Positions 15,867-43,853 of a DNA stretch of 64,000 bases are shown piece by piece (positions within the stretch are counted from its first letter, which is position 1; the number at the start of each line of letters is the position of its first letter). The position numbers and the translations under genes were made by a program. Under the pieces are notes generated by a model. That model was not told where the DNA came from. It saw only the letters and a program-made list of their open reading frames with translations, and did not search any database. Source of the stretch: Verrucomicrobiaceae bacterium (GTDB taxonomy: Bacteria > Verrucomicrobiota > Verrucomicrobiia > Verrucomicrobiales > Verrucomicrobiaceae); the NCBI GenBank assembly GCA_019694165.1, contig JAIBCL010000006.1, positions 1 through 64,000 of the forward strand, read 5' to 3'.

Positions 15867-15877
15867 CTGATGGAAGA

Positions 15878-18772: not shown

Positions 18773-19295
18773 ATCAGAGGCTTGCCGTGAGGCGATAACC
18801 ACAAATACGAACGCCGAAATTGTGCGGACAGGCTCAAGGCAACAGAAGTAGCTCATTGAGCGGCGTACTGCGTTGAGGGAAACGGCAGCAGTACGATGCG
18901 CTTCGTTCAGTGGTGCCAAGGACGAGCAACAAGACGCGCAACCAGGTTTGGAAGAAGCAGGTATCTGTTCGGATGCCAGATCAAGCATTGGCGGACGAAT
19001 TGGCCGTGTAGCTCCCTTCATCGTTTCGGCCAGGGGACGAGACGTGGCGGAACCGCGATCACGAACTTTGATCGGTGTATCCTGTTGGGTTGTCGTCCCG
19101 TCTCGCTTTGCCTCGCAAACGTTTGCCATCGAGAAATCTTCCCGCAACGCATGGGGTCAAACCAAACGGCGGAGAAAAGCAGTCCGGGCGATGCCCGTCT
19201 GACTTGTTCCTCCCAGTCGCGGAGGCTCGGTGACGAAAGTGGCACACCTCGCGTCTTCACAAATCGCTCCTCTGATGGACATTCGTGGCGCTCGC
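18773..19295. other. Intergenic region without convincing genes
   Basis: About 520 bases precede the GT4 gene. Several overlapping frames of 80-180 codons occur on both strands, but all are rich in Arg/Ser/Cys without domain character and none has a plausible start context. It may include a decayed gene; nothing could be identified. Confidence 0.35.
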
Positions 19296-20462
19296 ATGAA
19301 CTTCATGCTCATCACCGATACCTTTCCGCCGTTGATCAATGGCGTTTCGCGCACATTGCAAATTCTTGCCGCTGGTCTCGCGAATGCGGGTCATCGTGTC
19401 GAGGTTGTCACCACCGTTGACGGTGGCTGCCAGAATCCGGCCGTTCAAGTCACGACGGTACCATCCATCCCGTTGCCAGGGTATCAGGGCATTCGGCTGG
19501 GCCTGACGACTTCTGGCTTTATGAAGCGACGAATGAAGGCCATGAAGCCCGACGGGGTCTATGTGGCCGTGGAAAGCCTGATGGGCGCGGCAGCTGTGAA
19601 CGCGGCGCGAAAGCTTGGTATCCGCTTCGTGACAGGGTTTCACACGAACTTCCACTCTTACATGAGCGACTACCGGGTCGGAATGTTGTCCAGCGTCGCA
19701 GAGCGTTACCTGCGCTGGTTTCACAGTCGCGCGGCGCGGACCCTGGTACCTTCATCGACGGTGGCCGAGAATCTACGCCAGATGGGAATCCGTCGCATCA
19801 ACGTGATGGGGCGCGGTGTTGATTCCGCACTGTTTCATCCTTCGAAGCGAAACCACGAACTGCGAGCATCCATCGGAGCCACGGACCAAACGCCGGTTGC
19901 TCTTTACGCCGGCCGCGTGGCGGCGGAGAAAAATCTCGAGCTCGCGATCTCGTCCTTCCTCTCAATTCGCCGTACAAACCCGGCCGCACGTTGCGTCTTC
20001 GCCGGCGATGGTCCACGAGTCCCGGAGCTTAGCGCGAAATACCCAGAGTTTCACTTCGTCGGAGCCTGTGGCGACGACTTGCTCTCACGCTGGTACGCCA
20101 GCGCGGACGTGTTTGTGTTTCCGAGTTTGACGGAGACGTATGGGAACGTCGTCGCCGAGGCGATGGCCAGCGGCCTGGTGGTCGTAGCCTTTGCTTATGC
20201 CGCGGCGCAAAAGCTGATCCGACATCACGAGACAGGCTTTCTTGCGCCGTTTGGCGATCAGGAAACTTTCCTTTGTCATGTCACTAGCGCGCTCAATCAC
20301 TGGCACAATCAAGAGATGCGCGGAGCGGCACGGCATGCCGTGGAGCCTCTCGGCTGGCAGGAGATCATCCTCCAGTTCGAGCGGGAACTCCTCGGTGATC
20401 TGGAGTCCGTGCCGTTTGGCAAAGAGTCCCTGCAATCCCAGCTCGCACCAGCCCATGCCTGA
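19296..20462 (+). CDS. Family 4 glycosyltransferase (GDP-mannose-type alpha-mannosyltransferase)
   Basis: The 388-residue enzyme begins MNFMLITDTFPPLINGVSRT at ATG 19296 (ATG 19275 is possible). It is a two-domain GT-B protein: the N-terminal acceptor domain includes GFHTNFHSYMSDYRVG. The C-terminal donor domain has VALYAGRVAAEKNLELA, VFAGDGP and the retaining-enzyme motif PSLTETYGNVVAEAMASGLVVVA around residues 275-300. Relatives transfer mannose to lipid acceptors (PimB/MgtA-like). It overlaps the start of the following phosphoesterase by eight bases, a pairing known from glycolipid loci of other bacteria. Confidence 0.8.
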   Translation: MNFMLITDTFPPLINGVSRTLQILAAGLANAGHRVEVVTTVDGGCQNPAVQVTTVPSIPLPGYQGIRLGLTTSGFMKRRMKAMKPDGVYVAVESLMGAAAVNAARKLGIRFVTGFHTNFHSYMSDYRVGMLSSVAERYLRWFHSRAARTLVPSSTVAENLRQMGIRRINVMGRGVDSALFHPSKRNHELRASIGATDQTPVALYAGRVAAEKNLELAISSFLSIRRTNPAARCVFAGDGPRVPELSAKYPEFHFVGACGDDLLSRWYASADVFVFPSLTETYGNVVAEAMASGLVVVAFAYAAAQKLIRHHETGFLAPFGDQETFLCHVTSALNHWHNQEMRGAARHAVEPLGWQEIILQFERELLGDLESVPFGKESLQSQLAPAHA

Positions 20463-21318
20463 AAAACTCAAGCCACGATTCAAGACGATCTTCATCTCCG
20501 ACTTGCATCTCGGCGCAGCCGACTGCAAGGCGGAGCAGGCCAGCCACTTCCTCCGTCACTCGCAATGCGAGAAGCTCGTGATGAATGGCGACATCATCGA
20601 TGCCTGGGCGCTGCTGCGCGGCGGGAGATGGGAGAAGCCCCACACGCACTTCATCCGGACCGTGCTGCGGAAGATGGAAAAGGAGAATACCGAGGTCATC
20701 TACACGCGTGGCAATCACGACGACGTGCTGGAACGCTTTCTGCCCATCGCGATCGACAACCTTTGCATCGTGCAGGATCACATCCATGAGTCGCCTCATG
20801 GACGGTATCTCGTCATTCATGGAGACGGCTTCGACCATGTGACCACGAATCACAAATGGGCGGCGAAGGTCGGTGCCATCGGTTACGACACGCTCCTGCG
20901 CATCAATCGTCTCTACAACGTGTGGCGGCAATGGCGTGGGAAGCCGCCCTTTTCCTTCGCAAAATGGGTGAAGGCACGGGTGAAGGGCGCGGTCAGCTTT
21001 GTCGGCAAATACGAAGAGCAGCTTCAGCAGCTCGCCACCGAGAAAGGCTGCCGCGGTATCATCTGCGGCCACATTCACACCCCTGCGGACAAGAAGGTCG
21101 GCGACGTCCATTACCTCAACTCCGGCGACTGGGTGGAGTCCCTCACCGCAGTCGTGGAGCATCTGGACCGCACCTTCGAGGTCATCACATATGACGAGTG
21201 GTGCCGCCGCACGAACCGGCAGCCGCGAGGCACGTCCGGTTACCTGGATGCGGATGATGACGCCGACGATTCCATCGCCGATCTGCAGGGTGCGTTCGAC
21301 GCCGGAGCCGCCGCCTAG
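20455..21318 (+). CDS. LpxH-like UDP-2,3-diacylglucosamine diphosphatase-family metallophosphoesterase
   Basis: The 287-residue protein starts at ATG 20455 inside the GT4 stop region. It carries the full calcineurin-like motif set: DLHLG (residues 16-20), NGDIID (44-49), GNHDD (86-90), HGDGFD (122-127) and the closing GHIHTP near residue 203. LpxH-type enzymes hydrolyse UDP-2,3-diacylglucosamine in lipid A synthesis. Proteins of this subgroup paired with GT4 enzymes often act on other lipids, so the substrate here is uncertain. The C-terminal 25 residues are acidic. Confidence 0.75.
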   Translation: MPEKLKPRFKTIFISDLHLGAADCKAEQASHFLRHSQCEKLVMNGDIIDAWALLRGGRWEKPHTHFIRTVLRKMEKENTEVIYTRGNHDDVLERFLPIAIDNLCIVQDHIHESPHGRYLVIHGDGFDHVTTNHKWAAKVGAIGYDTLLRINRLYNVWRQWRGKPPFSFAKWVKARVKGAVSFVGKYEEQLQQLATEKGCRGIICGHIHTPADKKVGDVHYLNSGDWVESLTAVVEHLDRTFEVITYDEWCRRTNRQPRGTSGYLDADDDADDSIADLQGAFDAGAAA

Positions 21319-22148: not shown

Positions 22149-22943
22149 TCACCTCACCATTGCGGCGCGCTCATGGGCGAGTTGCACGGCGGCTTCGATC
22201 TGGCGTTTCATGAGGGCGCGAGTGCCGAAGTGGTCGGCGTACATTTTGTCGCTCATCTGCACGGCGGCGTCCCAGCGCTGGCGGTAGGCTGGATCGTTCG
22301 GATCCTGCGGCGTGGGGCCGACGGCTTCGACAAATTTTTGCGTGATCGCATCGGCAGTGGCCCGCTCGTCGGCGATGGTGGCCTTTGCATCAGCGGAGCG
22401 TGGGGCCGTGCGCGCAGCCCTGACGTCGATCGCGGCAACGCTCGCATTATGCGCGTAGATGGCGGGATAAACGGGACGGGTGAAGCTGGAGGACGGGGCG
22501 GTGTTCGCCGCCGATGACGGCATGGTACCTTCACTGCCTTGCGTGACATTGCCATTCCCGGCAGGACCGGTGTTGCGGTTCTCGATTGCAGAGGAAGGCT
22601 CGATCTCGACGGGACCCGAAGTGGCAAAGGACGCGGTGCCTGACTTTGCCGCAGCAGCGGCAGGCGTCAAAGGGGAAGGCAAGGCGGCGGCAACACGATT
22701 CTGCCCGGCATGGAACGAAGTGTGTGATGGAGATGGTGTCGCATGCGTGCTCGCCTGCGCCGCAGTTGACGCCGAAGATGAAACAGCCTCAAAATTGCCC
22801 TCAGTCCGTTGAAAGGCGGCGGGTCGAGCGGCTAAGTCAAAAGCCGCCGGTGTCGTCTGTTGCAGATTCCAGACGAGCAGAAAGGTGCAGGTGGCCGCGA
22901 GGGCGAGGTTCAGGGCAACGGAGATTTTCAGCGCGCGGGACAT
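22149..22943 (-). CDS. Membrane-anchored Ala/Ser-rich protein of unknown function
   Basis: The 264-residue product has an N-terminal signal-anchor (ISVALNLALAATCTFLLVW, residues 7-25). A low-complexity Ala/Ser/Thr/Pro region follows to about residue 150. The C-terminal helical part (residues 180-264, DERATADAITQKFVEAVGPT ... AAVQLAHERAAMVR) is probably coiled. No known domain was found. It is separated from the PstS-like gene upstream by a strong terminator and has its own transcription unit. Confidence 0.6.
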   Translation of the reverse strand: MSRALKISVALNLALAATCTFLLVWNLQQTTPAAFDLAARPAAFQRTEGNFEAVSSSASTAAQASTHATPSPSHTSFHAGQNRVAAALPSPLTPAAAAAKSGTASFATSGPVEIEPSSAIENRNTGPAGNGNVTQGSEGTMPSSAANTAPSSSFTRPVYPAIYAHNASVAAIDVRAARTAPRSADAKATIADERATADAITQKFVEAVGPTPQDPNDPAYRQRWDAAVQMSDKMYADHFGTRALMKRQIEAAVQLAHERAAMVR

Positions 22944-22986
22944 AGTGGGAAATGACGAACGATGAATGGAGAAGGACGAACGACTG

Positions 22987-23028
22987 AAAAAGAATGCTGG
23001 CCCCGGTGAGTGATCACGCGGGGCCAGC
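22987..23028 (-). terminator. Rho-independent terminator of the PstS-like gene
   Basis: On the minus strand a 9-base-pair stem (GCTGGCCCC with GGGGCCAGC; arms 22996-23004 and 23020-23028) is followed by ATTCTTTTT. It lies about 50 bases past the stop at 23081. The 15-base loop contains the small palindrome GTGATCAC. Confidence 0.8.
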
Positions 23029-23080
23029 GGGTTGAGAGTCAGTATTGTTCTCGCATAGGACGGCGCAGGCCGTCAACCAA

Positions 23081-24406
23081 CTAGGGGCCGACGAGGCCGC
23101 CGTCTTCCGAACGGGAAACGAGCATGGTGTTCACGTCGATGCCCGAGGGAGCGGCGGCACCGAAGGGCTGCATGTTCGCACCCATCTGGGCGATGATGGC
23201 ATCGCGCACGCTTGTCTGGCTGTTGGCACCCGTGCTGAGCGTGCCCGCCTTGTTATAGACGTGGAGGTAGCCCCACTCGGTGTATTTGCCGTTGCGTACG
23301 TTGTCCGTGCTGAACGCAACACCGTTGTAGGTCAGCTCCTTACCACCATTGTTGACGGCGGTGAGCGCATCACCGAGGCCAAGGTGAGCGACGAGGATGA
23401 TGCTCGATCCGGGCACCGTGCCGAGGGTTGTGCCCGTGCCATTCTTCAAGGTGACGGTGGCGGCCATCGTGGAGGAGAGTGCATTTGCAACGCTACCGCC
23501 GCTCGTGAATCCGCCATTGCCTTCGTTGGCATGATTGAGCGTGTTGGCCGGAGGGCTAGCTTCCTGGGCGGTGCCCGGCCAGACGCGAAGCTCGGCGATG
23601 GACCCATTCAAGCCTGGCAGCGTAGCGGTTGCGGCGACCACTGTGGACGGACGATACTGCGCAACGATACGGGCCACACCGTAGCGGGTCTCGGCGAGCT
23701 GGGTGCCTCGGGTGCCGGAGCCGTTGTCACGACCGGTGGCGTACACCGTGTTGCCAGCATCAGCCGGATTGCCCGTCACGACCGAGAGATCCACCGTGCC
23801 GCCCGAGAAGAGCAGCTCGTGGAGCTGGTCGGTGATGTTGGTGATGTTCGCGTTCAGGGCGCTCTCCTGAGCGACCCACTTGAAGGGAATCACACCGCCG
23901 ATGGCTTCCTCAAAGGTGACGCCTGCCACGGTAGGATCTAGAGCGATGGCGGAGTCCGCATACACGTCCGAGCAGGCCACGGTTGGGGTGACCGAGACGG
24001 TGGCGTTGTTGCTCTTGGCTGTGCCGAAAGTGGAGGTGCCATTGCAAGCGCCGAAGGTCGCGGTGGCGGGGTCCACCCAACCAGCCGTGGTGGCGGGAGA
24101 TGCCTTCACGTCCTTGAGGCCGTTGATGGAGCCGGACCAGTTGCAGTTCACCGTGTGAGCGACAGCACCGATGGTGCCTTTGAAGCAGACCTTGCCCGCG
24201 CCGCTGAGCTGGGAAGCCGTGGCGGCCGTCGCGGTGGTGGTGCCGGTCTGGACGGCAGCCGTGCAGGTGCCCGCATCGAAGGCCGCGACGATGGCGGCGT
24301 GCGTGACGGAACGGAACGCGGTGGAGCCGGTGATATTGACCGTCACCGCCTGGGCGAACGGGGCCGACATCGCGATGGCGGCGAGGATGAGTTTTGAGTT
24401 TTTCAT
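23081..24406 (-). CDS. Secreted PstS-like substrate-binding protein
   Basis: The 441-residue protein has a signal peptide (MKNSKLILAAIAMSAPFAQA, residues 1-20). The first mature strand VNITGSTAFRSVTHAAI corresponds to the GSTAxx phosphate-contact region of PstS-like periplasmic binding proteins. A later GRDNGSGTRGTQLAE resembles the second phosphate-binding loop (R-x-D-x-S-G-T). It is longer and more Thr/Ala-rich than ordinary PstS (about 330). No Pst ABC transporter genes are nearby, so it may be a surface or secreted phosphate binder rather than part of a permease. It follows the PEP-CTERM gene by 57 bases on the same strand. Confidence 0.65.
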   Translation of the reverse strand: MKNSKLILAAIAMSAPFAQAVTVNITGSTAFRSVTHAAIVAAFDAGTCTAAVQTGTTTATAATASQLSGAGKVCFKGTIGAVAHTVNCNWSGSINGLKDVKASPATTAGWVDPATATFGACNGTSTFGTAKSNNATVSVTPTVACSDVYADSAIALDPTVAGVTFEEAIGGVIPFKWVAQESALNANITNITDQLHELLFSGGTVDLSVVTGNPADAGNTVYATGRDNGSGTRGTQLAETRYGVARIVAQYRPSTVVAATATLPGLNGSIAELRVWPGTAQEASPPANTLNHANEGNGGFTSGGSVANALSSTMAATVTLKNGTGTTLGTVPGSSIILVAHLGLGDALTAVNNGGKELTYNGVAFSTDNVRNGKYTEWGYLHVYNKAGTLSTGANSQTSVRDAIIAQMGANMQPFGAAAPSGIDVNTMLVSRSEDGGLVGP

Positions 24407-24463
24407 GATGAGAGGAACTGAATGAGGTGTGGGTTGATCAAGACTGGATGAATGGTGATGGAA

Positions 24464-25318
24464 TCAGGCTTTCTTGGTGTTGCGGCGACGGCGGAAGATG
24501 AAGCCCATGGCGCCGAAGCCGAGAAGCAGCGCGCGGCTGGGCTCTGGAGCAGCGGCGTAGTTCGGAGCGACGGAGAATCCGACGTTGCCGGAGTCGTCGA
24601 TGTGGAACGTGCCTTCGTAGGAACCGACCCGGAGCGTGCCGGTCGGATTCGCACCGGTGGTGGTGCCGAGAACGCGGAAGAGATCCAAAGCCGTGCCGGC
24701 GGTGCCAGCGGCGAAGTTTCCTTCTGGCGTGCCACCGTTGGTCGAAGTGAAGGCACCCCAGGTGTTGGAATAGCCCGTGTCGTCCCAGCTCGTGCTTCCC
24801 GCACCACTGGAAGGCATGATCGTCGCGTTGGCGAGGCTGGTCGGCGTCGCGGCCGCGAACTCTCCTTGCACCGTGACCATCTTGCCCGCCGCAGCGGTCA
24901 AATTTGTTGCGGAAACAGTCTGCCCGGTGACGCCCCATGCCGTGGTCTGTGTACCGACGGTCGGCTCAGCGCGACTGACGTAAACCGTTTGGCCCGGATC
25001 TCCATTGACTACGCCAGCGGAGGTGAGGTTGGCGCGGACACCGGCCACTTCCCAGAAGAGGTCGGCCTGAGTGGTCCACCCGGCTCCGAAGGCGGTGGTG
25101 AGGTCGGAGTTGATGTTGACGATGTTGGTGATGTCGGCGGTGGCGTCACGATAGTTGGTGGCCGCGCCGACATTGACGAGATAGACGCTGGAGCTGCTCG
25201 TGGAGCGAAAGCCCAGGATCAGATCTCCAGCCGTGAAGGTGACCGCGGCCTTGGCCGGAGTCACAAACGCCGAACCCGCGATGGCGAGGAGGGCGATGAG
25301 TGTGTTTCTGATTTTCAT
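24464..25318 (-). CDS. PEP-CTERM sorting-domain exported protein
   Basis: The 284-residue protein starts at ATG 25318 with signal peptide MKIRNTLIALLAIAGSAFV (cleavage near PAKA). The C-terminus is a textbook PEP-CTERM tripartite signal: APEPSRALLLGFGAMG followed by FIFRRRR, i.e. PEP motif, hydrophobic helix and arginine cluster. Such proteins are cut by an exosortase, which must be encoded elsewhere. The mature region is Gly/Thr-rich and beta-type, with no recognised domain. It is divergent from the repeat-protein gene at 25490 and probably cotranscribed with the PstS-like gene. Confidence 0.85.
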   Translation of the reverse strand: MKIRNTLIALLAIAGSAFVTPAKAAVTFTAGDLILGFRSTSSSSVYLVNVGAATNYRDATADITNIVNINSDLTTAFGAGWTTQADLFWEVAGVRANLTSAGVVNGDPGQTVYVSRAEPTVGTQTTAWGVTGQTVSATNLTAAAGKMVTVQGEFAAATPTSLANATIMPSSGAGSTSWDDTGYSNTWGAFTSTNGGTPEGNFAAGTAGTALDLFRVLGTTTGANPTGTLRVGSYEGTFHIDDSGNVGFSVAPNYAAAPEPSRALLLGFGAMGFIFRRRRNTKKA

Positions 25319-25428
25319 TGGGTGGTGTGTGGATGCTTGGTTTTTTGGTCGAGGAATGCCCGGGGCCATCAGGTGACCAAGGCGCGCCATTTGTAGCGAT
25401 CTCACGCTCCCATCGCGAGAAACTTAGG

Positions 25429-25444
25429 GTCACTCTTTTGTAAC
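25429..25444 (+). promoter_or_regulatory. Pho-box-like direct repeat
   Basis: GTCAC at 25429 and GTAAC at 25440 are 11 bases apart, the spacing of PhoB-type half sites, 45 bases upstream of the 25490 start. Similar pairs occur at 21362-21377, 30663-30678 and 50780-50795. Assignment to the PhoB-like regulator encoded at 27348-28127 is inference. Confidence 0.3.
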
Positions 25445-25489
25445 ACTGTTTTTCGCGTTTCATCCGCATGACGGCGCATCGTACCAGGC

Positions 25490-27322
25490 ATGAAAAAGCA
25501 GGACGAACCCGCTGCTCCTACGCAGAGAAAACCCGCTCCGGCCACAGCTGCGGAGTCAAGCAACCTTCCCGACACTCTCGGTTACAAAACTGACACGCAC
25601 CGGCCAAGCCGGATCATCAAGAAAACGATCGTGCGGCTGCTCATCGCATTCCTCGTCGCGGCGTTGCCGCTGCTTGGATTGCTGGTAAAACTCGGCGTCA
25701 ATTCCGCGCGCCAATGGTGGTCGCAAACCCGCGCCGAAAATGCGGCGAACGACGACAGCGAAACCGATCTGCATAAGCGCGCGCAGACCATCATCGGCAG
25801 CCTTCGCCAGACACCGAATGACCCCAAGCTGCTGCGGACCTGGGCGTCATTTTTGAAGGAGAACAAAGGAGCGCCCTCCGACCGTGTCGCCGCATTGCGG
25901 CAAGTGGCAGCCTCGGATGAAGCAACGAACGATGACCGCAAGGAACTAGCGCTGGCCTTCATCGACGCGACGCAGTTTGACGAGGCACGGCCGCTGATCG
26001 AAGCATTGCCGCCTTCCCTTCTCGCAACGTTGGAAGTGCGCGAGGCGCGTGCGGCGCTGCTCGATGCGAGCGGAGATCACAAAGGCGCGACTGCGCTGCG
26101 CCGTGATGCCTGGCAATCCACTGCCGACGATGCGCGCAGCCGTCTTAATCTCGCGCTGCTCGATCTGAACGCAGTCTTTGAAGAAAAGCGGGTTGCCGCC
26201 ATTGAAACGCTTTGGACTCTCTCAGACGGCGCGGATGAGAATGCGCTGCAAGCCGTGCGAGCCCTTGCACGGCTTCCCTCGCTCACGCCCATGCGTGCCG
26301 AGACGCTGCAGCAGCGAGTGCAAAGACTCCGCTCCGCATCGAACCCTGATGTCTTCCTCGTGCTCAGCGCCGTCCTCCGCACGCATCCCCAGCAGAAAGC
26401 CACCATACTCGCCGGAGAAGTCGAGAAGGCGCGTTCGTACAGCCCGGCAGATCTTGCGGCGTTTCTGACCTTCCTGGATGAAGTGCATGAATGGAGTTTC
26501 ATGCTGTCATTGCTGCCTGCCGAGAAGGCGATGCTGGACCGAGATCTGTGTGTGATGCGCATCAAGGCTCTGAGCGAGCTTGGCCGCTTCTCTGAATTGG
26601 AGGCCATGCTGGCCTCGCGTCAAAAGCTTCCGTTGTCCAACGGGCATCTCGCGGTGTTTCGCGCCTTTTTCCACCAGAAGAAAGGAGAGACGGACGATGC
26701 ATTGCGTCAGCTCTCCACGGCATTGGCACACGCCACGGCTGATGAGGATCTCGAAACAGTGCGCCGCATCGCAGGCTTCGCACGTGAACAGGGCTTCACG
26801 GACACCGCCGCAAAGGCCTTCGCGTGGATCGCGGAACACGACCGCGACTTCCGTCTCTCCGCGCTCAACGATCTCTTCAAGATCGCCGTCGCGAAAGGTG
26901 ATGCGTCGCTCATGCTAAGCACGGCGGAGCGCATGGTCGAAATGCGGAAGCAAAACGCGCCGCTGCTGTTGAACGTGGCCTACCTGCGATTGCTCGTCGG
27001 CAGCCGCATCGAGACGGTGCCGGAACTACTGACAAGATTGGACGCCCGGAGCAGAGAATCCGACGGTCACCCCACGGATGCCAGCGTCGCGCTGTTGCAA
27101 GCGTTCATGAGCTACCGCTTCGGCGACGCATCGGGTGTGCGCGAAGCACTCGCCCGCATCGACGACTGCTCGCTGCTGCCGCCCGGCCAGCGCGCTATCG
27201 CGGCGGCACTGTTCCAAGCATACGGCAGCAGCGCGTCGGCCTTTGAACTTGCCTCGACACTTCCCGCACTCGCGCTTCTGCCCGAGGAGAAGAACCTCTG
27301 GATCAATCTTACTTCCCGCTGA
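25490..27322 (+). CDS. Membrane-anchored helical-repeat (TPR-like) protein 1
   Basis: The 610-residue product has a polar N-terminus of about 45 residues and then one transmembrane helix (VRLLIAFLVAALPLLGLLVKLG, residues 48-69). About 530 residues of alternating helices follow, with TPR-like Ala/Leu spacing (for example LRTWASFLKENKGA, DEARPLIEALPPSLLATLEV). It has the same plan as the protein at 28324-30420, and both end in LPEEK followed by a short tail, suggesting paralogy. The topology puts the repeats outside the cytoplasm, or inside if the N-terminus is external. A scaffold or assembly role next to the secretion operon is plausible. Confidence 0.6.
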   Translation: MKKQDEPAAPTQRKPAPATAAESSNLPDTLGYKTDTHRPSRIIKKTIVRLLIAFLVAALPLLGLLVKLGVNSARQWWSQTRAENAANDDSETDLHKRAQTIIGSLRQTPNDPKLLRTWASFLKENKGAPSDRVAALRQVAASDEATNDDRKELALAFIDATQFDEARPLIEALPPSLLATLEVREARAALLDASGDHKGATALRRDAWQSTADDARSRLNLALLDLNAVFEEKRVAAIETLWTLSDGADENALQAVRALARLPSLTPMRAETLQQRVQRLRSASNPDVFLVLSAVLRTHPQQKATILAGEVEKARSYSPADLAAFLTFLDEVHEWSFMLSLLPAEKAMLDRDLCVMRIKALSELGRFSELEAMLASRQKLPLSNGHLAVFRAFFHQKKGETDDALRQLSTALAHATADEDLETVRRIAGFAREQGFTDTAAKAFAWIAEHDRDFRLSALNDLFKIAVAKGDASLMLSTAERMVEMRKQNAPLLLNVAYLRLLVGSRIETVPELLTRLDARSRESDGHPTDASVALLQAFMSYRFGDASGVREALARIDDCSLLPPGQRAIAAALFQAYGSSASAFELASTLPALALLPEEKNLWINLTSR

Positions 27323-27347
27323 TCAACGACGGCACGCCCTCTTTCGT

Positions 27348-28127
27348 TCAGAACGCATCTTGTGCTCCGGCAGTCGCGGAAATCATCGGACTGCCGCTGC
27401 TATTCGGCGGCGCGAGGCAGTAGCCGTTGCCTCGGGAGGTTTGCAGCCACTCGGCGCGTGTCCCCAGCTTCTCTCGCAGACGCTTTACATGCGTGTCGAG
27501 CGTCCGGGTCTTGGTGTGCTCGGAGTAGTTCCATACTTCGCGCAGGATCGTGTCGCGGGATACGAGCGCGCCATAGTGGCTGGCGAGCAGGTGAAGCAGC
27601 TTGAACTCAATCATCGTCAGCGACGAGATTTCGCCATCCACGAGCAGCCTTACGTTGGGAGGGTCGAGTTCAAACGGACCCACGCGTAGCGTGGTCTGCT
27701 TCTCCCGGAGGGCGAGCCGTTTCACCAGAGATTGAACGCGGAGCACCAACTCCTTCGGACTGAACGGTTTCGTCAAATAGTCATCAGCACCGAGCTGCAG
27801 ACCGACGATGCGGTCCTGAATCAGATCGCGCGCGGTGAGCATCAGCACAGGCACTGCCAGTGTTTCGGGATCGGCCCGCAGCAGTCGGCAAACTTCGTAG
27901 CCGTCGCGGTCCGGCATCATGATATCCAGCACGACGGCGGATGGAAGATTCTCTTTGATCAGCCGGCTCGCCTCCAGTCCATTCGGTGCCTCCAAGGTAT
28001 CAAACCCCGCCTGCCCCAGGTTCAAGCACACCAGCTCGCGAATCTCGTCATCATCGTCGGCCACCAGAACGCAGCGCCTTGCAGGTTCCGCTCCTTGTCT
28101 CTCGCAGCTTTGATCGCCAGGAATCAT
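27348..28127 (-). CDS. OmpR/PhoB-family response regulator
   Basis: The 259-residue protein starts at ATG 28127; a longer frame to 28322 is arginine- and cysteine-rich and was rejected. The receiver domain shows the acidic cluster DDDD (24-27), phospho-acceptor Asp68 in VLDIMMPDRDG, Thr98 in MLTARD and Lys120 in LTKPF. The C-terminal winged helix has LTMIEFKLLHLLASH, RDTILREVWNY and TLDTHVKRLREKLG, typical of PhoB-like proteins. No histidine kinase is adjacent, so it is an orphan here. It sits between the two repeat proteins, converging with the first and diverging from the second. Confidence 0.9.
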   Translation of the reverse strand: MIPGDQSCERQGAEPARRCVLVADDDDEIRELVCLNLGQAGFDTLEAPNGLEASRLIKENLPSAVVLDIMMPDRDGYEVCRLLRADPETLAVPVLMLTARDLIQDRIVGLQLGADDYLTKPFSPKELVLRVQSLVKRLALREKQTTLRVGPFELDPPNVRLLVDGEISSLTMIEFKLLHLLASHYGALVSRDTILREVWNYSEHTKTRTLDTHVKRLREKLGTRAEWLQTSRGNGYCLAPPNSSGSPMISATAGAQDAF

Positions 28128-28323
28128 GGTTTCAGGGCCGCACGATGTCACATGAGCAAATCGTTTCGCGGCATGCGTGATCGAAGCTAAAACCCGGCAC
28201 TCCATCAATGGGGCTGTGGTGAAGCATTCGTCACACGGGCCATGAGACCGGGCCGCTCTGCAACGGATTCGTAACGCGCTTTGCTTTGCCCGTGAGGGGC
28301 ATTGGCAGGAGGGGTTCCACACG

Positions 28324-30420
28324 ATGGCTTACACTCCTCGCCCCAACCGCTCCGTCAGTTCGACCGCCCGAGAGCGGAGAGCCGCGAAGCCACTGGGGGC
28401 GAAGCAGCTATCGTCGCCTCCGCATCGTGAGAAGAAGTTTCGCGTGAATGAAACGTCGCTGCCGATGGCAAAGAAGGCGGCCGTGCCAAGGCACCATTCT
28501 TCGTCACCGGCCGCGCCTGTCAGACGAATGCAAAAAAAGCGCAGTCTGCGCGAGCAGCGGTTCAGTCTGGTGATGTCTTCGAATTCGTCGGTCACATCGC
28601 ACTCCCGTCAGGGCCTCGCTTTCAGGCAAGGCATCCGTCAGCAGCAGGCGATGCTGGCGGTTCCTCGCTCGGTAGCGCCAGAGTTCTCTCTCCCGGCGCG
28701 GCTCTTGAATGGCTTTCTCCGCGCTTGGGAAGAACGCCCGATGCGGAACAAGCTCGTTGCCAGCGGAGCGATCGTGATCGCTTCCACGGCGATGATGGCG
28801 GGCAGCCTCGGATGGGCGCGGCGGGCGACCGTCTCCTGGAAGAACTGGCGTGCGGAGGCAAAGATCGAGCAGGCGGAGGCACGCTTCGAGAGTGAAGACT
28901 TCGGTACCGGCTTCCTGCTGGCGAGCGAGGCCTGTAGGGACGCTCCGGCTAACGAGAAAGCCATCCGCTGTCTCGCACGTCGGTGGGAGGAGGTAGGATC
29001 ATCGAAGAGTCTCTATTTCGTCGAACGTCTTGAAAAAATTGGCAAGCTTACGCGCGAAGACCAGATTACTAAGCTGGCCGCACTCATCAACGAACGTCGG
29101 TTCAAGGAAGCGCAGTCGCTTGCGGTTGAATTGTGCGTGCGTGAAGACATCGAACCGAGACTTGTAAAGCTGGGTTGCGAAATCGGTCGCGCGGGATTTC
29201 AAATCCCGCCCGCGTTGCGGGCGAAAGCCGTCGCGTCTCTCACATTGACGCATAGTCACAATGATGTCCTTGATCTGGCTTCGGTCATGATCGGCACCAA
29301 TGATCACGAGCGTGCGGCTGCCGCCCTTTGGAACATAGTGGAAAGGGCAAAGCCAGCCGTCGCCCGGAAGGCAGCCCGAGTACTTCACGACCACACGCCT
29401 TTCACCGCCCCATCTTCGGCCTATCTCGCGTGGGTGATGACGGAGCTGCCGGATGCCGATGCGACTCTCCGTGCATCGGCGCTTGAACGAGCGATCAAAA
29501 GCGATCCTTCGAAGGCCGGGCAGATTCTCAAACAAGCGGTGATCGACTGGAGCATCGCGCCGCTGGCAGATCGCGCGATTCTCGGACGTCTGATTTCATC
29601 TTGCAGGCAACCAACATCACTCGTCGGCCTTTTCGGCCACGATGAGGCGACGACGGATCCTGTAGTCGCCAACTTGTATGCGGAGAGCCTGCTCGCCCAC
29701 GGTCGCGTGGAGGAAAGCGTGGCCCTGCTGAAGGACGAGCGGCTTCCCGTCAGCCGTGCCCAGCGCGCTTATGGGGAGGCGGTGATCACGCTCCATGCGA
29801 CAGCGGACGTGGATGAGCGCCGCTTCCGTCTTCTCTGCGCACTGGATGCCTCCGGTGCGGAGGCGAATGTCAATCTTCTCATCGGCGTCGCTGAACTCGC
29901 CACCGGATGCGGACAGATTCCCGTGGCCGAACGTGCTTACGACGAGTGCCGTCATCTGCGTGGCGCGCGCGAGGCCGCGATGGACGGCCTGATCGCTCTT
30001 TACGAGACCCACGGCAGCACCGAGAAGCTGCTCGCCACGACGCAGGAAGCGATGCTGATGTGGCCGGGCAACGAGCGATACCTGGAGAAGAATGTTTATG
30101 CGTCCCTGCTGCTCGGCCAGAACATGGAAGAGGCCGCCGTGAAGGCCGAAAGCCTGCTGGAAAAACGACCGACGGATGAAGTCCGACTGTTCCTCGCCTC
30201 CATGGCTCACGCGCGCATGGGAAACGCGACCATGGCCCGCTGCGAATTACGAAAACTCAGCGTCAGCCGAAACATTCCTCCGCGCTATCGAGCGGTGATC
30301 GGCGGCCTGCTCAAAAGCGTAGGCGACAGCCAGTCGGCATCCGATTTCGTGATCGATGTCTCCGACCAAGAGGTGCCGCTGCCGGAGGAGAAGGCGTTTC
30401 TCGCGCTCGCGAGGCTCTGA
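28324..30420 (+). CDS. Membrane-anchored helical-repeat (TPR-like) protein 2
   Basis: The 698-residue protein begins with a basic low-complexity tail of about 135 residues. One transmembrane helix follows (KLVASGAIVIASTAMMAGSLGWA, about residues 142-164), then roughly 530 residues of paired helices with TPR-like character (RFESEDFGTGFLLASEACRD, AERAYDECRHLRGAREAAMD). It matches the protein at 25490-27322 in layout and in its LPEEKAFLALARL terminus. The start at ATG 28324 is only 196 bases from the divergent response-regulator start. No enzymatic motif is seen; it is probably a scaffold. Confidence 0.6.
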   Translation: MAYTPRPNRSVSSTARERRAAKPLGAKQLSSPPHREKKFRVNETSLPMAKKAAVPRHHSSSPAAPVRRMQKKRSLREQRFSLVMSSNSSVTSHSRQGLAFRQGIRQQQAMLAVPRSVAPEFSLPARLLNGFLRAWEERPMRNKLVASGAIVIASTAMMAGSLGWARRATVSWKNWRAEAKIEQAEARFESEDFGTGFLLASEACRDAPANEKAIRCLARRWEEVGSSKSLYFVERLEKIGKLTREDQITKLAALINERRFKEAQSLAVELCVREDIEPRLVKLGCEIGRAGFQIPPALRAKAVASLTLTHSHNDVLDLASVMIGTNDHERAAAALWNIVERAKPAVARKAARVLHDHTPFTAPSSAYLAWVMTELPDADATLRASALERAIKSDPSKAGQILKQAVIDWSIAPLADRAILGRLISSCRQPTSLVGLFGHDEATTDPVVANLYAESLLAHGRVEESVALLKDERLPVSRAQRAYGEAVITLHATADVDERRFRLLCALDASGAEANVNLLIGVAELATGCGQIPVAERAYDECRHLRGAREAAMDGLIALYETHGSTEKLLATTQEAMLMWPGNERYLEKNVYASLLLGQNMEEAAVKAESLLEKRPTDEVRLFLASMAHARMGNATMARCELRKLSVSRNIPPRYRAVIGGLLKSVGDSQSASDFVIDVSDQEVPLPEEKAFLALARL

Positions 30421-30425
30421 AGCCC

Positions 30426-30614
30426 TCAACGAATGATGCGCGGGGGATTGATCGACTCCGCCGCTTTCACCTTCTTCTCGTGAACGAACGGCAGCCGACA
30501 AATCAGGATCAGCGCAACAATGATGAGCGCCAACGTAAGGAGCGGACCGCCACGATGACGCAGGAAGCGCGTCCGGCGACGCCACGAAAGATGACGATGA
30601 ATTTCGGGCGGCAT
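30426..30614 (-). CDS. Small single-span membrane protein downstream of the giant exoprotein
   Basis: This 62-residue frame encodes a basic N-terminus (IHRHLSWRRRTRFLRHRGG), a transmembrane helix (LLTLALIIVALILICRLPFV, about residues 25-44) and a short charged tail. It converges with the repeat-protein gene (stops five bases apart) and lies 123 bases after the giant gene's stop on the same strand. A real product is suggested by the positive-inside layout, but no homologue was recognised. Confidence 0.4.
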   Translation of the reverse strand: MPPEIHRHLSWRRRTRFLRHRGGPLLTLALIIVALILICRLPFVHEKKVKAAESINPPRIIR

Positions 30615-30737: not shown

Positions 30738-33700
30738 TCAAAGACCCGCCCCGCGCTTTTTCTTCTGTTCGTCGTCCCCTTCCGGCTCGCCTTCACCGCC
30801 GCCGTAGCCGATGACTTCGACATTGATGATGGAAGGCAGCGGCTCCTTCTGCGGCGTTGCTTGCTGTGCCTTTGTGGCGGCTTTCGCTGCTGAATCGGCG
30901 GCGGAAGAATTTGATCCAGCAGCCGATGACGCTGCCGCAAGGCCGCCGATGTTCGGCGCGCTCACTGCGGGTGCCGAAGGCGTGCCGGTGCTGGTGCCGG
31001 CGACAGAGATGTTGCTCGCGTTCAGCACCGCGGTGGCGGCGATGTTGAGATTGCCCGAGGAGCGGATGCCAGCGTCACCCGCATCGACCACGCCGACGGG
31101 TGCGATGAGATCGACGTTGCCCGGCGGAACGCCGACGACGGTGTCGAGCACGCCGATGCCGCCGCCGGTGGCGAGGCCGGAGAGGTCGGTCTGCACGTTG
31201 CCGCTTTGCGGATCGATGACCACGCGCGTCGGCGGCGCGGACTGCACCGTTTTCGATGACGCACCGGCGGCGATATTGCCGGTGGAGGACCAGATCATGA
31301 TGTCACCGCCGCGCAGCGTGAAGATTCGCGAGGTGCCGAGATCGACATTGCCATTGGCGAAAATGTTGATGCTGCCGCCGCGCTCTGTGAGAACGCCCTG
31401 CTCGAGCGATTGTCCGTCCGGACGGTCGATGCCGACGGACAGCTTTCCGCCGGGCGCGAGGATGCTGATGTCGCCACCGACTCGCGTCTTGATCTCGCGC
31501 GCCGTGAGCGAGATGTCTCCTGTGTATTTATCTTTCGAGAAGAGCGCCTTGATGGCGGCGAAGCCGCCGTCGTAGGTGGCTCCGACGTTGCTATGGTCGC
31601 GACCTGCATCACGCAAAGCAAGGAAGAGGACGGACAGAGAGCGCCGCCACTGCTCGTCCGGCGACAGAGCATTGAACTTGTCCACCGTCAACGGATCGGT
31701 CAGCTCGGATAAGTATCTCGAGCCATTCGACCCGCCGATGATCGTGCTGATGAAGGCGTCGAAGTCGAAGCCGCCCGCATTCAGTCCGCCTGCGACTCCG
31801 AGACCCGCCGCCACTCTGATGTCAGAGCCATCAAAGGGCAGATACGGATTGCGCGCATTGCCGATGCTCACGATGCCGACGCCCGTGCCGTCCGCATTGT
31901 TCGCGCCGCTGCCGAGGTCGAGATTGCGTCCGGCGAGCACCTCCAGCGTGCCGGGGCCGCTGATTTGAATGTCACCCGCTTCCACCGGCTCGTTGCTGGC
32001 CAGGCGGTTCAGTCCGGTCTGCGACTTCACGCGCAGTTGCGAATTCGGATTGTACAGGACAATGTCCCGCCCGCTGGAAACCACACTCACATCGCTGTCG
32101 CGCACGTTCTGGATGTAGAGCGAGACATCCGTGATGTCCTGGCCGGAGAAAATCGAGGCTGCCTTCGGCGAGAAAAGTGTAAGGCCGGAGAGACTGCCCG
32201 TGCCGGAGTAGAGGCGGACCGGCTCGGTGTCCTTCGCGTGCAGCGGTCCCGAAGCGTGGAGGTTTTGTTTGCTTTGGATGGTGGCGAAAGCCCCCGTGCT
32301 GGAACCAGACTCGATGAACTTCTTCTTGATGAAGGAGAGGAAATCCGTCGAGGTCGTAGATCGCTGCGATGTCGCCTTGCCCGAGATGTTGAAGTAGGCA
32401 TAAGGCGACGCCACGCCAGGAATGGATGCTGGATTCGCGTCGGAAACGTTGATGGTGGAGGAGGTCCAGTATGTGATCCTCTGGCCCGTGAGGTCGGTGC
32501 TGGTGCCGGTGGGAGCAAGACCGTTGATGGCACCGCCGGCGACGATTTGCAGAGTGCCTGTCGCCGACGGGAAGAGTGTGAGATCGCCGGTCACATTCAC
32601 ATCACCCGAGAATGCCGTGACGCGAAGCGAAGACGGCATCACGCTGTAGAGGGTGTCGAACTGGGAACCCACGCTCGTCTCGGAGAGACGCAGCCAGGGC
32701 TGGTAGTTGGCTGCCGAGTTTGAGTTCAGCAGCAGTTCCTTTTCTTCCCAAAGCCGAAGCAGAGATGTGGGTGTGGTGCTGCCATTGATCGAAGCGGACT
32801 CACGCAAGGTGACGTTGCCGCCGATCGACGAGACATTGACCGCGCTCGTCGAGCTGTGCGTCGAGAAGTAGGTTTTGTACCAGTAGCGGTTCTGCTGACC
32901 CTGCGGCAGCCAGAAGACGTTCGCCACCGGGCCGAGCAGGACATCGCCACGCGCGCTCACATTGAAGATCGTCTTTCCGGCGAACAGCGTCGTCGGCAGC
33001 CAGGTGAGTTCCGACTCGATGATCGGCGTGGCAGAACCACTCAGCCTTCCGAGTGATGGCGAGCGCGTGGAGTTCGTTGTGATGCTTCCTCCGGCTTTCA
33101 ACGTGCCAGTGCCGCGCTCGACGTAATACACTCCACCGTCGATATTTCGACCGGCATCGAGCGAGAGATCTCCGCCGCCGAGTTCGAGGATCTTGGATGC
33201 ATCGGGCGTGCCAGAGGGCGCACGCGCATTAGTTGGAGTGTGAGCATCAACGTTTTGAATGTCGCGCCCTGCGTTGAGCGTGACATCACCGCCGCCCAGC
33301 GCGCCCACGCCGCTGAAGAAATTGCTGAAATCGACCCACCAGCTCGTCGAGGCGGAAGGGTCGTTAACCTGGACGGTGATGGACTGGAAGACTCCGGAGT
33401 TCCCGTACTGGCCGGTCGCAGGATCGACGTAGCCGCGACGATAGAGCCAGTTCTCGGGGAGCTGACGTGACGAGTCGAGAATCAAATTGCCGGCATTGTC
33501 CTTCGTCAGATGCTTGATGTCCTGCTGCGCGGCGACGACCACGTTTCCACCCGCCATGCTGTATTGAGCAAAGTAGTTCTGCTGAAGAGCGCCCAGACCA
33601 GTCTGTGCTGGCGTGTTGTTTGAAGAGACGATGGGCGTGACGAAGTCGCCTGCGGTGAAAACGGTCGTCGGGCTCGCAACCTGAGTGCCCGCGGTGTAAA

Positions 33701-36700
33701 TCGTGGCGAACTGGTTGAGCAACTGCACATCACGTCCCGCCGTCACGGTGATGTCGCCGCTGCCGGTGCGGATGACCTGGAAGCGATTCGATCCCGTATT
33801 CGCATTCGTCGAGTTCGAGGGATTGATCGCGCTGCGTGTCGTGGCATTGCTGCCACCGCTCACCGTTGCCTGGCCTGCATTTTGTCCGATCAAGATGGAG
33901 CCGCTGTTTGAAGGCAGGCTCGTCATCGAGATCACATTGCGGAAGTCCGCGCCGGAGAAGTCCGCGCCGGAGGTGATGCGATAGGACCACGACTGCGCAT
34001 TCACCGGCAGCGTGCTGCTCTGCGCGAGCAAAGGAGCGGTCCAGAGCTTTTCGAGTGCATTGGTCGATGTCGCGCCGTTCACATCGAAACCGTCGCTCAA
34101 AGCGTTGTAAAACACGACATCGCCCGCTGCCTTCAGCGTAAGCACGCCGGGTGCGTTCTTCGTGCCGAAACGGAATGTGGCGAGGTTCCAGTCATTGACC
34201 ACAGGCGAGGATGCGCTCGACCCCAGCGTGATGTTGCCGGTGCGATTGATGATCTCCGCTCCGGGCATCACGACGAGAACCGACGATAGCCCTGCGTTAT
34301 TGGCGAGAATGCGGCTGGTGATGTTCGTGGCGGCAGCGCCGAAGGTGTTGCCGTTGTTTTTCACCTGCGTCTGGATGTTGTTCGCGCCGGTGTTGATGAT
34401 GACGCCGCTGCCCGTGATGTCGTAAAGCTTGTACCCTTCCACTTCGATCTTCGAGGCGCCGAGGATCGTGCCGTTGATCGGATTGATCTGAAGTTCGTTC
34501 GCTGCCGCCACCTGCGGCGCGCGAATGTGGAGCGAGCCAGTGAACTGGCCAAACTTCGCGCTGTCCGCCGTGTTCGAGGCGACCGACAGATTGATCAACG
34601 AGCCTGTCTTCACGTCCACGAGTGCAGCGGTGTTGATCACGCCATTGATCTCCGATCCAGCTTCGAGATACACCGCACCGCCTTTGCCTGAATTGCTGAA
34701 GGTCTGCGCCGATGCGTCGAGAATCGCACCGGCATTCAAGGTGACGCTGCCACTGGCCTTGAGATCAATGGTGCCGCCGGTCGTTCCTGAGGCGTCGATC
34801 GTTCCCGTCACGGTGATCGAGCCGCCATCGGTGGAGAGGATGAAGTTCTTCGTCTTTGACACGCCATCGACGGTCACATTGCCCGAATGCACGCGAAGGG
34901 TGCGCGATTCATTGAACGAGCCATTGTTCAACACGGTGGTGAGCGAAGAGAAGCTCGCGAGCGTGCCGGTGTCGAGATTGAACGAGCCTCCCTTGCCACC
35001 AGCGCCGCCCTGCCCGGAGACGGTGCCGCCAAGCACGAACGACCCCTTGGGTGCGCTCACGGTGAATGTTCCGGCATTTCCGAGGTCGGGATGCGCTGCG
35101 ACATTGATCACGCCGCCGTCTTTGATCTGCACAGAGCCATTGTCAGCCGCGAGAGTGATGCTGCCGGCGTCGGTGTATTGAATGAGGTCATAAAACGTCT
35201 GTGCCGTGCCACCAACATCGAGGCGGCCGCCGACGGAGACATTGCCAGTGAGCGCCTGCATTTTCAGGAGACCGCTCGGCAACAGCACATCCGTGTCCGC
35301 CGTGATGCTCGCGCCTTGGAAGCTCAAGCTTGATCCGAGTCCACCGGTGACTGCGGCCGTCGTGCCGCTCTTCACGAGCGACAAAGCGCCGCCTGCGGTG
35401 ATGCCGTGGCTGGCGGATTTTTCTGCGGTGATCACCGGGGTCGTGGCAGTGACCGCACCTTGTGCCACGAGCGAGCCCGTGCCCTTCGCGATGATGCCGC
35501 CCGACGCCGTGAGGAGGAGGTTCGCATACTGATCGATGTTCAGTGTGCCTTGTCCGAGACGGATCGTGTCGCCGACGAAGGCCAGCGTGCCGCTCAATTT
35601 CGCCGCTGATGCGGGTGCCTCGGCATTGGCACTGTTATCGAGCGTGATGTCGCCGGCCGTGAAGGTCACCTGCCCGCCGCCGTTGTTGAAACCACGAATC
35701 GATCCGGCATGAAGCGCGAGCTTGCCTGCCGAAGAGAACTGTCCGGTGCCATAAATGTCGAGCGTGGTGTAGCTCAGCAGCGAGAGCGACTGCGCGTTCT
35801 GCAGACCGGCAAGCGCAGAACCGGAGAGCACGAGGCCGACGGTCGGATTGAGCGCGCCTGGATTGTCGAGCTGGATGCTGATGCGCCCGCTGTTCAGAGA
35901 AATCGCGCTGCCGAGAATGGACGCACTGGCATCGAGCGAGGTGGCATAGGTCGAGTCGAGGATGATGCTCTGACCGCTCACTGTTGCTCCCGCGCCGATG
36001 GTCATCTTCGGCACGATTTGCGTCGGGAAGTCAGCAGGCACCGTGACGGAGTTGCGGAAGATCTGCGCATTCGGATCGCTGCTCACGCGCAGCATCGTGC
36101 CATTGCCGCTGCCAACGACGGCGGAGTCGCCAAACACCAGCAGGTCTGCCGCCCCGCCCATGGAACCTGACTGGAGGATTTGCGCGCCATCAGTCAGCGT
36201 GAGCGTCTTCGTCGCCGCGAGAATGATCTCCGGACCAGTGAGTGGCGCGCCTGCATTGTCCACAGTGATGTTGTTCGCTGTCACTTTCACCGTCGTGCTG
36301 TCGCGTCCGAAGGCGCGATAGCCACCGATCAGAAGACTCTCGGCGCCCCAGCGACTCACAAGTGCCGAGTCGAGGACCAGCTTGCCCGTTTGTCCGCTTG
36401 CGCCCGCGCCGCCGATGACGATATCGATCGGTGTGCTGATGTCGATCTGGCCGCCGCGACCTCCCGCCTTACTCATGCCGTACACGTCGCCTTGTAGTGA
36501 CATCGCTTGAGTGGAGCTGAAGAGCAGATAGCCGCCGTCGATCGGCAGTCGCGGCACTGGTGAGTCCAGCTTGATCGCGCTGTCTCTCAGGAAGGTGTTT
36601 GCGTAGTAGCGTTCATACGTCGCGCGCTGGCTCACCACGGAGTAGGAGGCGACTTCAAAACGCGAGTAGAGCGAGGAAACGTCGCGACTGCTGTTCAAGT

Positions 36701-43053: not shown

Positions 43054-43853
43054 GTTTTCGCCTTGGTTTTCGCTGCGCTCGGAGCCTGCGCGGCAGGAGC
43101 CTGCACTTTTGCGGCATCCTCGGGTTTGGTTGGCGGAGCAGGCTCATTGGCTTTGTCGGCCTTGTTCTTCTTGTCCTCGGGCAGCGTGTTGTTGTAATCA
43201 GCGGGCCGGATTTTCTGCGCGACGAGCTTCTCCTCGTAGTTCTGCATGAGGTTCTGCAGCTTCACGCGGGTGATGCCGGTGAACGGCTCGCGCGCGGTGA
43301 GCGCAGTGCCGAGGCCGAACCCTTTGTAGCGGTCGAGGATTTCGTTGCCGATCTTGAACATCTCCGCGTTCTTCGCCTCGTTGTCGGCGACGCGGCGCTC
43401 GAGCACGACGACCTTGCCGGCGAGCACACTGCGCTCGGCCTCCTTCTTCTGCGCGATGGCGGCGGCCTTGCCGTAGCCGTCCTTCCACTTCGTGAGCGTC
43501 TGTTTCGTGCGGGCGAGATCCTGCTCGGTGTTCGCGACTTTCGAAGTCAGCTCGTTGATCGACTTGTCGGTCGCCGCCTTGTCTTCAGCGGTCTTCTTGC
43601 GCAGGGCGTCGAGCTGCTTCGTCAGGTCGGCGATCTTCTTCTCGTTCTCCGTCTTCGTCGTTTCGAGTTCGGCCTGCAGCGTCGCCTTCTCGGCTTCGAC
43701 GGTTTGGAGCTGCACCATCGTGGTGCGCAAAGTTTCGCGCATTTTCTTCAGCGCGGCCTCCATGGCGTTAGCCTGCTGCTGTTGTTGCGCATTCGCTGAT
43801 GTGACGATGCACAGCGCGACAGCGAGAGCGGTGGTTTTCAAAAATCGGTTCAT
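43050..43853 (-). CDS. Periplasmic coiled-coil protein
   Basis: The 267-residue product has a signal peptide ending at TSANA (about residue 22), a poly-Gln start, and a long coiled coil (residues 30-160, heptads such as LQTVEAEKATLQAELETTK and ADLTKQLDALRKKTAED). A short globular part (AREPFTGITRVKLQNLMQNY) and a Pro/Ala/Lys tail follow. It could be a rod-like periplasmic spacer or chaperone. It lies between the porin and the parvulin in the TPS/Ton operon and overlaps the parvulin by ATGA. Confidence 0.7.
   Translation of the reverse strand: MNRFLKTTALAVALCIVTSANAQQQQQANAMEAALKKMRETLRTTMVQLQTVEAEKATLQAELETTKTENEKKIADLTKQLDALRKKTAEDKAATDKSINELTSKVANTEQDLARTKQTLTKWKDGYGKAAAIAQKKEAERSVLAGKVVVLERRVADNEAKNAEMFKIGNEILDRYKGFGLGTALTAREPFTGITRVKLQNLMQNYEEKLVAQKIRPADYNNTLPEDKKNKADKANEPAPPTKPEDAAKVQAPAAQAPSAAKTKAKT

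Follow-up and report, generated by a model that had tools for sequence, protein, structure and literature searches.

A candidate phosphate-limitation island around a Pdt-type two-partner secretion operon in a Verrucomicrobiaceae bacterium

The stretch of DNA analysed here, called the window, comprises 64 kb of contig C19 in the 7.8 Mb genome of a Verrucomicrobiaceae bacterium. From approximately 19.2 to 50.8 kb it contains a group of envelope genes around a two-partner secretion (TPS) operon, which probably constitutes a phosphate-limitation island, with a regulation that is predicted from promoter motifs. From left to right, the island consists of an agt-like and a plcP-like gene on the plus strand, genes for a small, a PstS-like and a PEP-CTERM protein on the minus strand, the repeat-protein genes TPRA and TPRB on the plus strand with a minus-strand response regulator gene between them, and the minus-strand TPS operon. 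An earlier note, made from the DNA letters alone, had named the PstS-like protein, the response regulator, the two repeat proteins and the adjoining TPS operon, all of which are present; the agt-like and plcP-like genes (19230–21318) and the PEP-CTERM nature of 24464–25318 are additions to that reading.

The operon encodes, in this order, TpsB (48997–50682), of the ShlB/FhaC type with POTRA domains; ExbB (47062–48978), fused to DUF2341 and Laminin_G_3 domains; ExbD (46651–47055; PF02472, 3.1e-26); a TonB-like protein (45900–46613); a Porin_5 outer-membrane porin (43866–45881); a coiled-coil protein (43050–43853); a PpiC-type peptidyl-prolyl isomerase (42142–43053); and a giant TPS-A exoprotein of 3793 residues (30738–42119), containing a TPS domain and DUF3739. 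The TonB-like protein matches TonB_2 weakly and below the cut-off (0.068), and its hidden Markov model (HMM) matches plasmid genes annotated as TonB. The HMM of the coiled-coil protein, which occupies the position of PA0697, matches plasmid genes annotated as hypothetical at the same place. A predicted Pho box with a score of 15.3 (50777–50798, minus strand) is located 95 bp before TpsB.

This organization resembles the pdt locus of Pseudomonas aeruginosa, for which the available portions of two papers give the order pdtB-exbB2-exbD2-tonB4-PA0696 (porin)-PA0697-PA0698 (YbjN)-PA0699 (PpiC) (PMC7035377, PMC4971064). Compared by published gene list, the two loci share a giant TpsA, a Pho box before the unit (predicted in the window) and, barring PA0698, the same gene order. 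They differ in that TpsA closes the operon in the window, where PEP-CTERM, TPR, agt-plcP and PhoB-paralogue genes lie alongside. A YbjN gene (PA0698) is not found in the window operon, in which the coiled-coil gene shares 4 bases with the PpiC gene and the other gaps behind the porin gene are below 25 bases; the rest of the genome was not searched for it.

To what extent this arrangement is conserved can be seen from a scan of genome contigs with the porin as query, which detects 234 relatives. The best 80, referred to as the named loci, belong nearly all to the Verrucomicrobiota, with Reyranella in addition, and include Chthoniobacter flavus Ellin428, Brevifollis gellanilyticus and Haloferula sp. 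BvORR071. By HMM, the genes for TpsB, ExbB, TonB, porin and coiled coil occur in this order on one strand in 62 of the 80 loci (ExbD enters none of the cross-locus counts), followed by TpsA in 53 of the 62. Four of the nine ordered loci without TpsA end within 600 bases, and the other five (L189, L191, L197, L198, L202) have at least 5 kb left, with no TpsA there. At least 3.5 kb of sequence before TpsB, considered on either strand, is available for 51 of the 80 named loci; it includes a PstS-like gene in 27, a kinase gene in one and a match to the PEP-CTERM HMM in 26, although this HMM may pick up unrelated PEP-CTERM proteins too.

Viewed from the PstS-like gene, the association is similar. 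Matches are present in 26 of the 57 genomes searched, the source genome included, and in 20 PstS-like regions of relatives TpsB is found in the same stretch in 13, and TpsB or TpsA in 17. The three remaining regions are L089, L092 and L107, and a contig end is close by in the first two. A PEP-CTERM-type neighbour is observed in 19 of the 20 regions, in some cases perhaps through shared C-terminal features only, and in some relatives a homologue of the small protein lies between the PstS-like gene and TpsB. As regards gene order, the neighbourhood of PstS-like and TPS genes put forward earlier is thus conserved, but the TPRA-regulator-TPRB arrangement is observed in the window only and in none of the relatives examined.

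The PstS-like protein itself (23081–24406, minus strand; leader assigned by eye) is barely recognizable by sequence, with no Pfam match and an NCBIfam PstS match of only E 0.0084. A profile built from 23 aligned members nevertheless retrieves the PstS structure 4exl (9.3e-9). The AlphaFold2 (AF2) model, with a predicted local distance difference test score (pLDDT) of 80.2 and a predicted template modelling score (pTM) of 0.81, matches PstS structures with a Foldseek value of 7.5e-11 and a Z-score of up to 25.5, at a root mean square deviation of 2.6 across 255 residues. These matches bear out the phosphate-binding-like identity proposed in the earlier note, at the level of a PstS fold. No match to PstC, PstA or PstB is found among the window ORFs (open reading frames), in agreement with the claim that Pst permease neighbours are lacking; the pstS-C-A-B-B cluster of this genome is located on contig C52.

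Whether the protein still binds phosphate is less evident. The window protein has an intact anion motif, GRDNGSGTR, corresponding to the R-D-x-x-S-G-T stretch that we take to be anion-binding from what is known of E. coli PstS, with its position in the window protein assigned by sequence motif alone. In 5 of the 23 aligned members the motif is replaced by GRNTDAGQR, and 3 more have GRN instead of GRD. Together with the large sequence distance from PstS, these replacements would fit a PstS-fold protein that no longer binds phosphate and has a structural or other-ligand role at the surface. We consider this possible, but less probable than retained binding, in view of the intact motif of the window protein and of the structural comparison of the model, in which the top 38 rows consist solely of phosphate-binding, PstS or DING proteins and other domains appear only from Z 14.3 down. 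The five members with GRNTDAGQR (L098, L100, L101, L102, L108) form a subgroup that also has an altered N-terminal loop (SNGDR), and their gene neighbourhood is unchanged.

A secreted PstS-type protein encoded next to a giant exoprotein gene is known from P. fluorescens. There, according to the available text, psp, for a Pi-regulated DING/PstS protein, is located between Hxc type II genes and a gene for a 4083-residue haemagglutinin (PMC2225411). The window thus shares with the DING/PstS exoproteins encoded next to Hxc type II genes (P. fluorescens psp; P. aeruginosa lapA/lapB), as far as the available accounts describe them, a PstS-type gene that adjoins a giant haemagglutinin gene. The window protein differs from them by a very different sequence and by its N-terminus, ...AQAVTVNITGSTAFR, which lacks the DINGGG sequence; the DING structure 2q9t superimposes on the model with a Z-score of 17.9.

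Upstream of the PstS-like gene, the PEP-CTERM protein (24464–25318, minus strand) scores 24.2 bits with TIGR02595 (cut-off 16) and 17 bits with Pfam PF07589, below the cut-off of 20.7; two exosortase matches are present in the genome. The small protein on the other side (22149–22943, minus strand) has a hydrophobic N-terminus, as judged by eye, and is without a Pfam family.

TPRA (25490–27322, plus strand), a membrane-anchored helical-repeat protein according to HMM and model, and TPRB (28324–30420, plus strand; HMM) are paralogous, as had been proposed, with cross-HMM scores of 156 and 179 bits. The TPRA model consists of a disordered N-terminus and one long helix at residues 41–86, taken by eye to be transmembrane, with helices only thereafter. 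The common LPEEK end has to be rejected as a sorting or anchoring signal: the ends in the TPR family vary (LPEER, LPEEQ, LLEEE, LLDEE), and LPEEK represents an LPEE/LxEE motif that is only loosely conserved at their C-termini. In 7 loci of 6 genomes (L098, L140, L144, L145, L155, L156, L157), TpsA is followed by TPRA in the same direction, and in the only other species of the genus that was sampled a gene named lepA by eye adjoins TPRB. The TPR family has matches in 35 of 57 genomes, all from the bacterial family of the source. Sixteen regions (L073–L088) contain copies that are mostly about 25% identical to TPRB, with no TpsA or TpsB within the stretch fetched.

The regulator (27348–28127, minus strand; ORF to 28322, likely start ATG 28127) contains the Response_reg (5.1e-26) and Trans_reg_C (4.7e-22) domains of Pfam. 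At 202 bits it misses the NCBIfam PhoB equivalog cut-off of 296 bits, as does, at 218 bits, the PhoB that the other species carries together with its pst genes. Its identification as PhoB-like holds: it is a paralogue of the genome's own PhoB, to which it is 63% identical and which adjoins a PhoR-like kinase on contig C7. In a tree of 40 rows these two proteins form a four-member clade (99/97) with the PhoB of the other species, which adjoins phoR and pstS-C-A-B-B, and with a second PhoB-like protein of that species. The pairing of the regulator with this second protein is weak (86/63). Like the PhoB of a PhoR-PhoB pair, the regulator has both domains and retains the phospho-acceptor Asp, in addition to the RTLDTHxKRLREKLG stretch; it differs by its divergence, its long branch and the absence of an adjoining kinase gene, a further point on which the first reading was right. 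The best match for a cognate kinase is the one next to PhoB on contig C7, and there is none at the locus.

In the other sampled species, the second PhoB-like gene (L318:2213-2950) is surrounded by genes for Porin_O_P, a methyltransferase, DUF3419 and agt-plcP, with several predicted Pho boxes, on a separate contig from TPRB; the methyltransferase and DUF3419 genes are presumably btaB/btaA-like. The simplest reading of these sequences is that PhoB was duplicated within the genus and that the spare copy was retained near phosphate genes. In several other relatives a kinase adjoins the regulator of the cluster, with PnpS and PhoR as the best NCBIfam models, below cut-off. The cluster regulators of these relatives form a separate clade, and orthology of the window regulator with them was rejected.

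At the left end of the island, the agt-like gene (ORF 19230–20462, plus strand; likely start ATG 19275 or 19296) encodes a glycosyltransferase with Pfam GT4/GT1 matches; among the NCBIfam models, those of glycolipid synthases fit it best, with scores below cut-off. It is followed by a gene for a metallophosphoesterase (20455–21318, plus strand; ORF from 20242, likely start ATG 20455; Metallophos 5.6e-10). The name PlcP for the latter is our assumption, taken from its neighbourhood and from general knowledge of such loci and not from a family model. A predicted Pho box scoring 16.8 (19227–19248, minus strand) precedes the agt-like gene. In relatives, the agt-like homologue adjoins the regulator-kinase pair and a plcP-like gene. 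The available portion of one study describes plcP with agt and Pho boxes in marine bacteria, and plcP also from Verrucomicrobia (PMC4796936). The tandem of glycosyltransferase and PlcP-like phosphoesterase behind a predicted Pho box is comparable to the plcP-agt lipid remodelling under phosphorus deficiency described there, except that in the window agt comes before plcP and the pair is linked to a TPS island; the corresponding enzyme activity is putative.

The matrix for the predicted Pho box was derived from sequences upstream of pst and phoB genes in this genome and in relatives (21 regions), and no TPS promoters were included. A site is present in 19 of the 21 training regions, with a consensus near AATGTGACGCTTTCGTCACAAA and leave-one-out scores of 11.3 to 30.7. 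Three sites in the window score at least 12: the ones before the agt-like gene (19227) and TpsB (50777), and a site of 13.3 between the regulator and TPRB (28216–28237, plus strand). In the named loci, a site of at least 12 is found upstream of TpsB in 25 of 59, compared to 2 of 87 control promoters; a first background set of 800 regions was found to contain true Pho promoters and is not used as control. Column-shuffled matrices yield on average 0.44 and at most 3 sites on the same 59 regions. Internal regions of the operon are nearly devoid of sites (ExbB 1/63, TonB 0/70, porin 0/77, coiled coil 0/77), their sum of 1/287 leaving out PpiC (1/39) and TpsA (8/66), which are also within the operon. 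When all cluster loci are taken, with some genomes counted twice, TpsB is preceded by a site in 36 of 73, and 31 of these 36 begin at a distance of 21 to 126 bp ahead of the called ORF start. In the named loci, regulator upstream regions have a site in 2 of 5 cases. In the other sampled species of the genus, boxes occur near the likely TpsB start (25.2 and 20.1) and before TPRB (22.6). The exact core motif is present at 5 distinct places in the 7.8 Mb genome, versus 1 for a backward-read control. The pst operon has one of them, the region between a Porin_O_P gene and a PQQ-repeat gene in divergent orientation has two in tandem, and at the remaining two no clear phosphate gene is seen. The tandem sites before the Porin_O_P gene are located at L285:5318-5413.

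Several observations weigh against a single phosphate-controlled unit. First-order Markov sequence yields 0.95 sites of at least 12 per window, and 316 kb of other regions from this genome and relatives (L073–L088) yields 4, so that the three window sites alone are not decisive; it is their placement and the enrichment across genomes that carry weight. The site between the PEP-CTERM gene and TPRA (25425–25446, plus strand) is weak, its score of 8.7 being reached by 2 of 88 control regions. Sites of at least 12 occur upstream of only 4 of 28 PEP-CTERM and 3 of 27 PstS-like genes in the named loci, and boxes before TpsB are fewer in loci with a PstS-like gene (8/30) than in those without (17/29). 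Of the co-directional PEP-CTERM/PstS-like/TpsB runs, 19 are flanked by enough sequence to be scored, and a box of at least 12 at the start of the run or at TpsB is present in only 6 of these. The 8 sites among 66 TpsA regions show that the motif is not confined to TpsB, and since the motif is near-palindromic another regulator may bind to it. The sequences are related and non-independent, which inflates all motif counts. The regulator is long-branched in the trees, and in its paralogue from the other species the phospho-acceptor Asp is replaced by Asn.

In this light, the TPS operon and its accessory genes could be constitutive or otherwise regulated, with the PhoB paralogue and agt-plcP as chance neighbours. 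Such a coincidence would be compatible with the 34 of 59 named TpsB regions without a site of at least 12, with the lack of a PstS-like gene from the available upstream sequence in 24 of 51 loci, and with the location of the regulator elsewhere in the other sampled species of the genus. We nevertheless judge it very unlikely, given the enrichment of boxes before TpsB and the kinase and regulator that adjoin the cluster in several relatives. Upstream of TpsB, OmpR/PhoB-type regulators and plcP-like genes are present in 5 and 3, respectively, of the 51 named loci, as raw counts without a chance rate. By analogy, control by PhoB is also suggested by P. aeruginosa, where according to the available portions of the literature the promoters of pdtA and phdA are targets of PhoB binding, and activity requires the pho box of pdtA (PMC7035377, PMC4971064). 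The pdt operon is under the control of both PhoB and sigma-VreI.

The near-palindromic consensus, TGTGAC-N6-GTCACA, also raises the question whether a CRP/FNR-like protein, or another regulator with a palindromic site, recognizes the motif, in which case the programme would answer a different signal. This, too, appears highly improbable. The training promoters are those of pst and phoB, and further sites are found at Porin_O_P, regulator-kinase and agt promoters. In one pst promoter (G009) TGTCAC occurs as an exact direct repeat with 11-bp spacing, and further pst promoters contain sequences at most one mismatch away from TGTCA-N6-TGTCA; a direct-repeat spacing of 11 bp is that of the E. coli Pho boxes. 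Moreover, TGTGA and TCACA are separated by N8, as against the N6 that we take to be typical of CRP sites. The earlier note had considered phosphate or surface stress as the signal; the evidence points to phosphate.

The proposal of a single phosphate-responsive envelope programme can thus be retained for the most part. With their predicted Pho boxes, the agt-plcP pair, the TPS operon and the promoter between the regulator and TPRB can with good support be placed in one programme. The PstS-like/PEP-CTERM unit, with its weak site, can be assigned to the same programme with moderate support, because here gene order supports more than the promoters do. The TPRA-regulator-TPRB order and an anchoring role of LPEEK find no support. 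At low phosphate, PhoB from contig C7, encoded next to its PhoR-like kinase, and the window paralogue would bind to the Pho boxes. Induction of agt-plcP would lead to the exchange of phospholipids for glycolipids, if the enzymes have the activities assigned to them, and induction of the Pdt-type operon would result in export of a 3.8k-residue surface exoprotein by means of its own TonB-ExbB-ExbD motor, porin and isomerase. Less surely, the exported PstS-fold protein, the PEP-CTERM surface protein and two inner-membrane TPR helpers, which may assist export, would be switched on as well. One could go further and imagine that during famine a surface fibre powered by TonB-ExbBD displays or loads the PstS-fold protein and catches phosphate before its uptake through porin and Pst, while the orphan PhoB paralogue tunes the programme without a kinase of its own. 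We regard this extension as speculative and rather unlikely.

The island would be a phosphate-starvation island of the Pdt/DING kind in another phylum, and no new category is needed. The experimental papers found on Pdt-type secretion deal with Pseudomonas, for which one of the texts calls the TonB system and the products of PA0696–PA0700 uncharacterised (PMC7035377). A review presents PdtAB as a TPS system under phosphate control, and its available portion mentions neither ExbB nor Verrucomicrobia (PMC5422565). No paper was found that joins Verrucomicrobia, filamentous hemagglutinin and PEP-CTERM, and among the papers listed on two-partner secretion or the Pho regulon/PhoB in Verrucomicrobia, judged by title and the start of the abstract, none describes the island. 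The occurrence of the Pdt-type operon across many Verrucomicrobiota, with a motif that predicts phosphate control and with adjoining PstS-like and lipid-remodelling genes in part of them, allows a common function to be tested in the named strains, and offers a candidate Pho box for the phylum. It also provides a genomic setting for the ExbB-DUF2341 fusions, DUF2341 being called unknown in one paper.

Beyond the Verrucomicrobiota, the operon HMMs have matches in Pdt-type operons on plasmids of three proteobacteria, Methylosinus, Klebsiella and Cupriavidus, all of which contain the fusion of ExbB to DUF2341 and Laminin_G_3; a Burkholderia stagnalis plasmid record was read by HMM only. The Methylosinus operon has genes for a PstS-type protein, TPR proteins, an extracytoplasmic function (ECF) sigma factor and type II secretion nearby. 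Its PstS-type protein has a Pfam PBP_like_2 domain and an RSDGSGT motif, and is absent from the list of PstS-like HMM matches at E 1e-3; its TPR protein matches the TPRA model weakly (E 1.9e-4). PstS-type proteins may have joined the TPS locus independently in Methylosinus. Of the genes known from pdt, those for YbjN, PpiC and LysR are present with the Klebsiella operon. In Cupriavidus, PpiC precedes TpsB, and the operon adjoins type II secretion genes. On a K. quasipneumoniae plasmid typed as conjugative (L269), a complete Pdt-type operon is accompanied by a DUF4880 gene, and arsenic-resistance genes are located nearby.

Searches of the 64 kb window with Rfam, at the gathering threshold, and for tRNA genes gave no match. 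Upstream of the TPS operon, genes for an ArdC-type anti-restriction protein and a phage-type integrase are located at 50935–54154 on the minus strand, which is possibly the edge of an integrated element. To the left of the island (14907–17680, minus strand), an ECF sigma gene (14907–15866) lies behind a Ser/Thr kinase gene with DUF4019.

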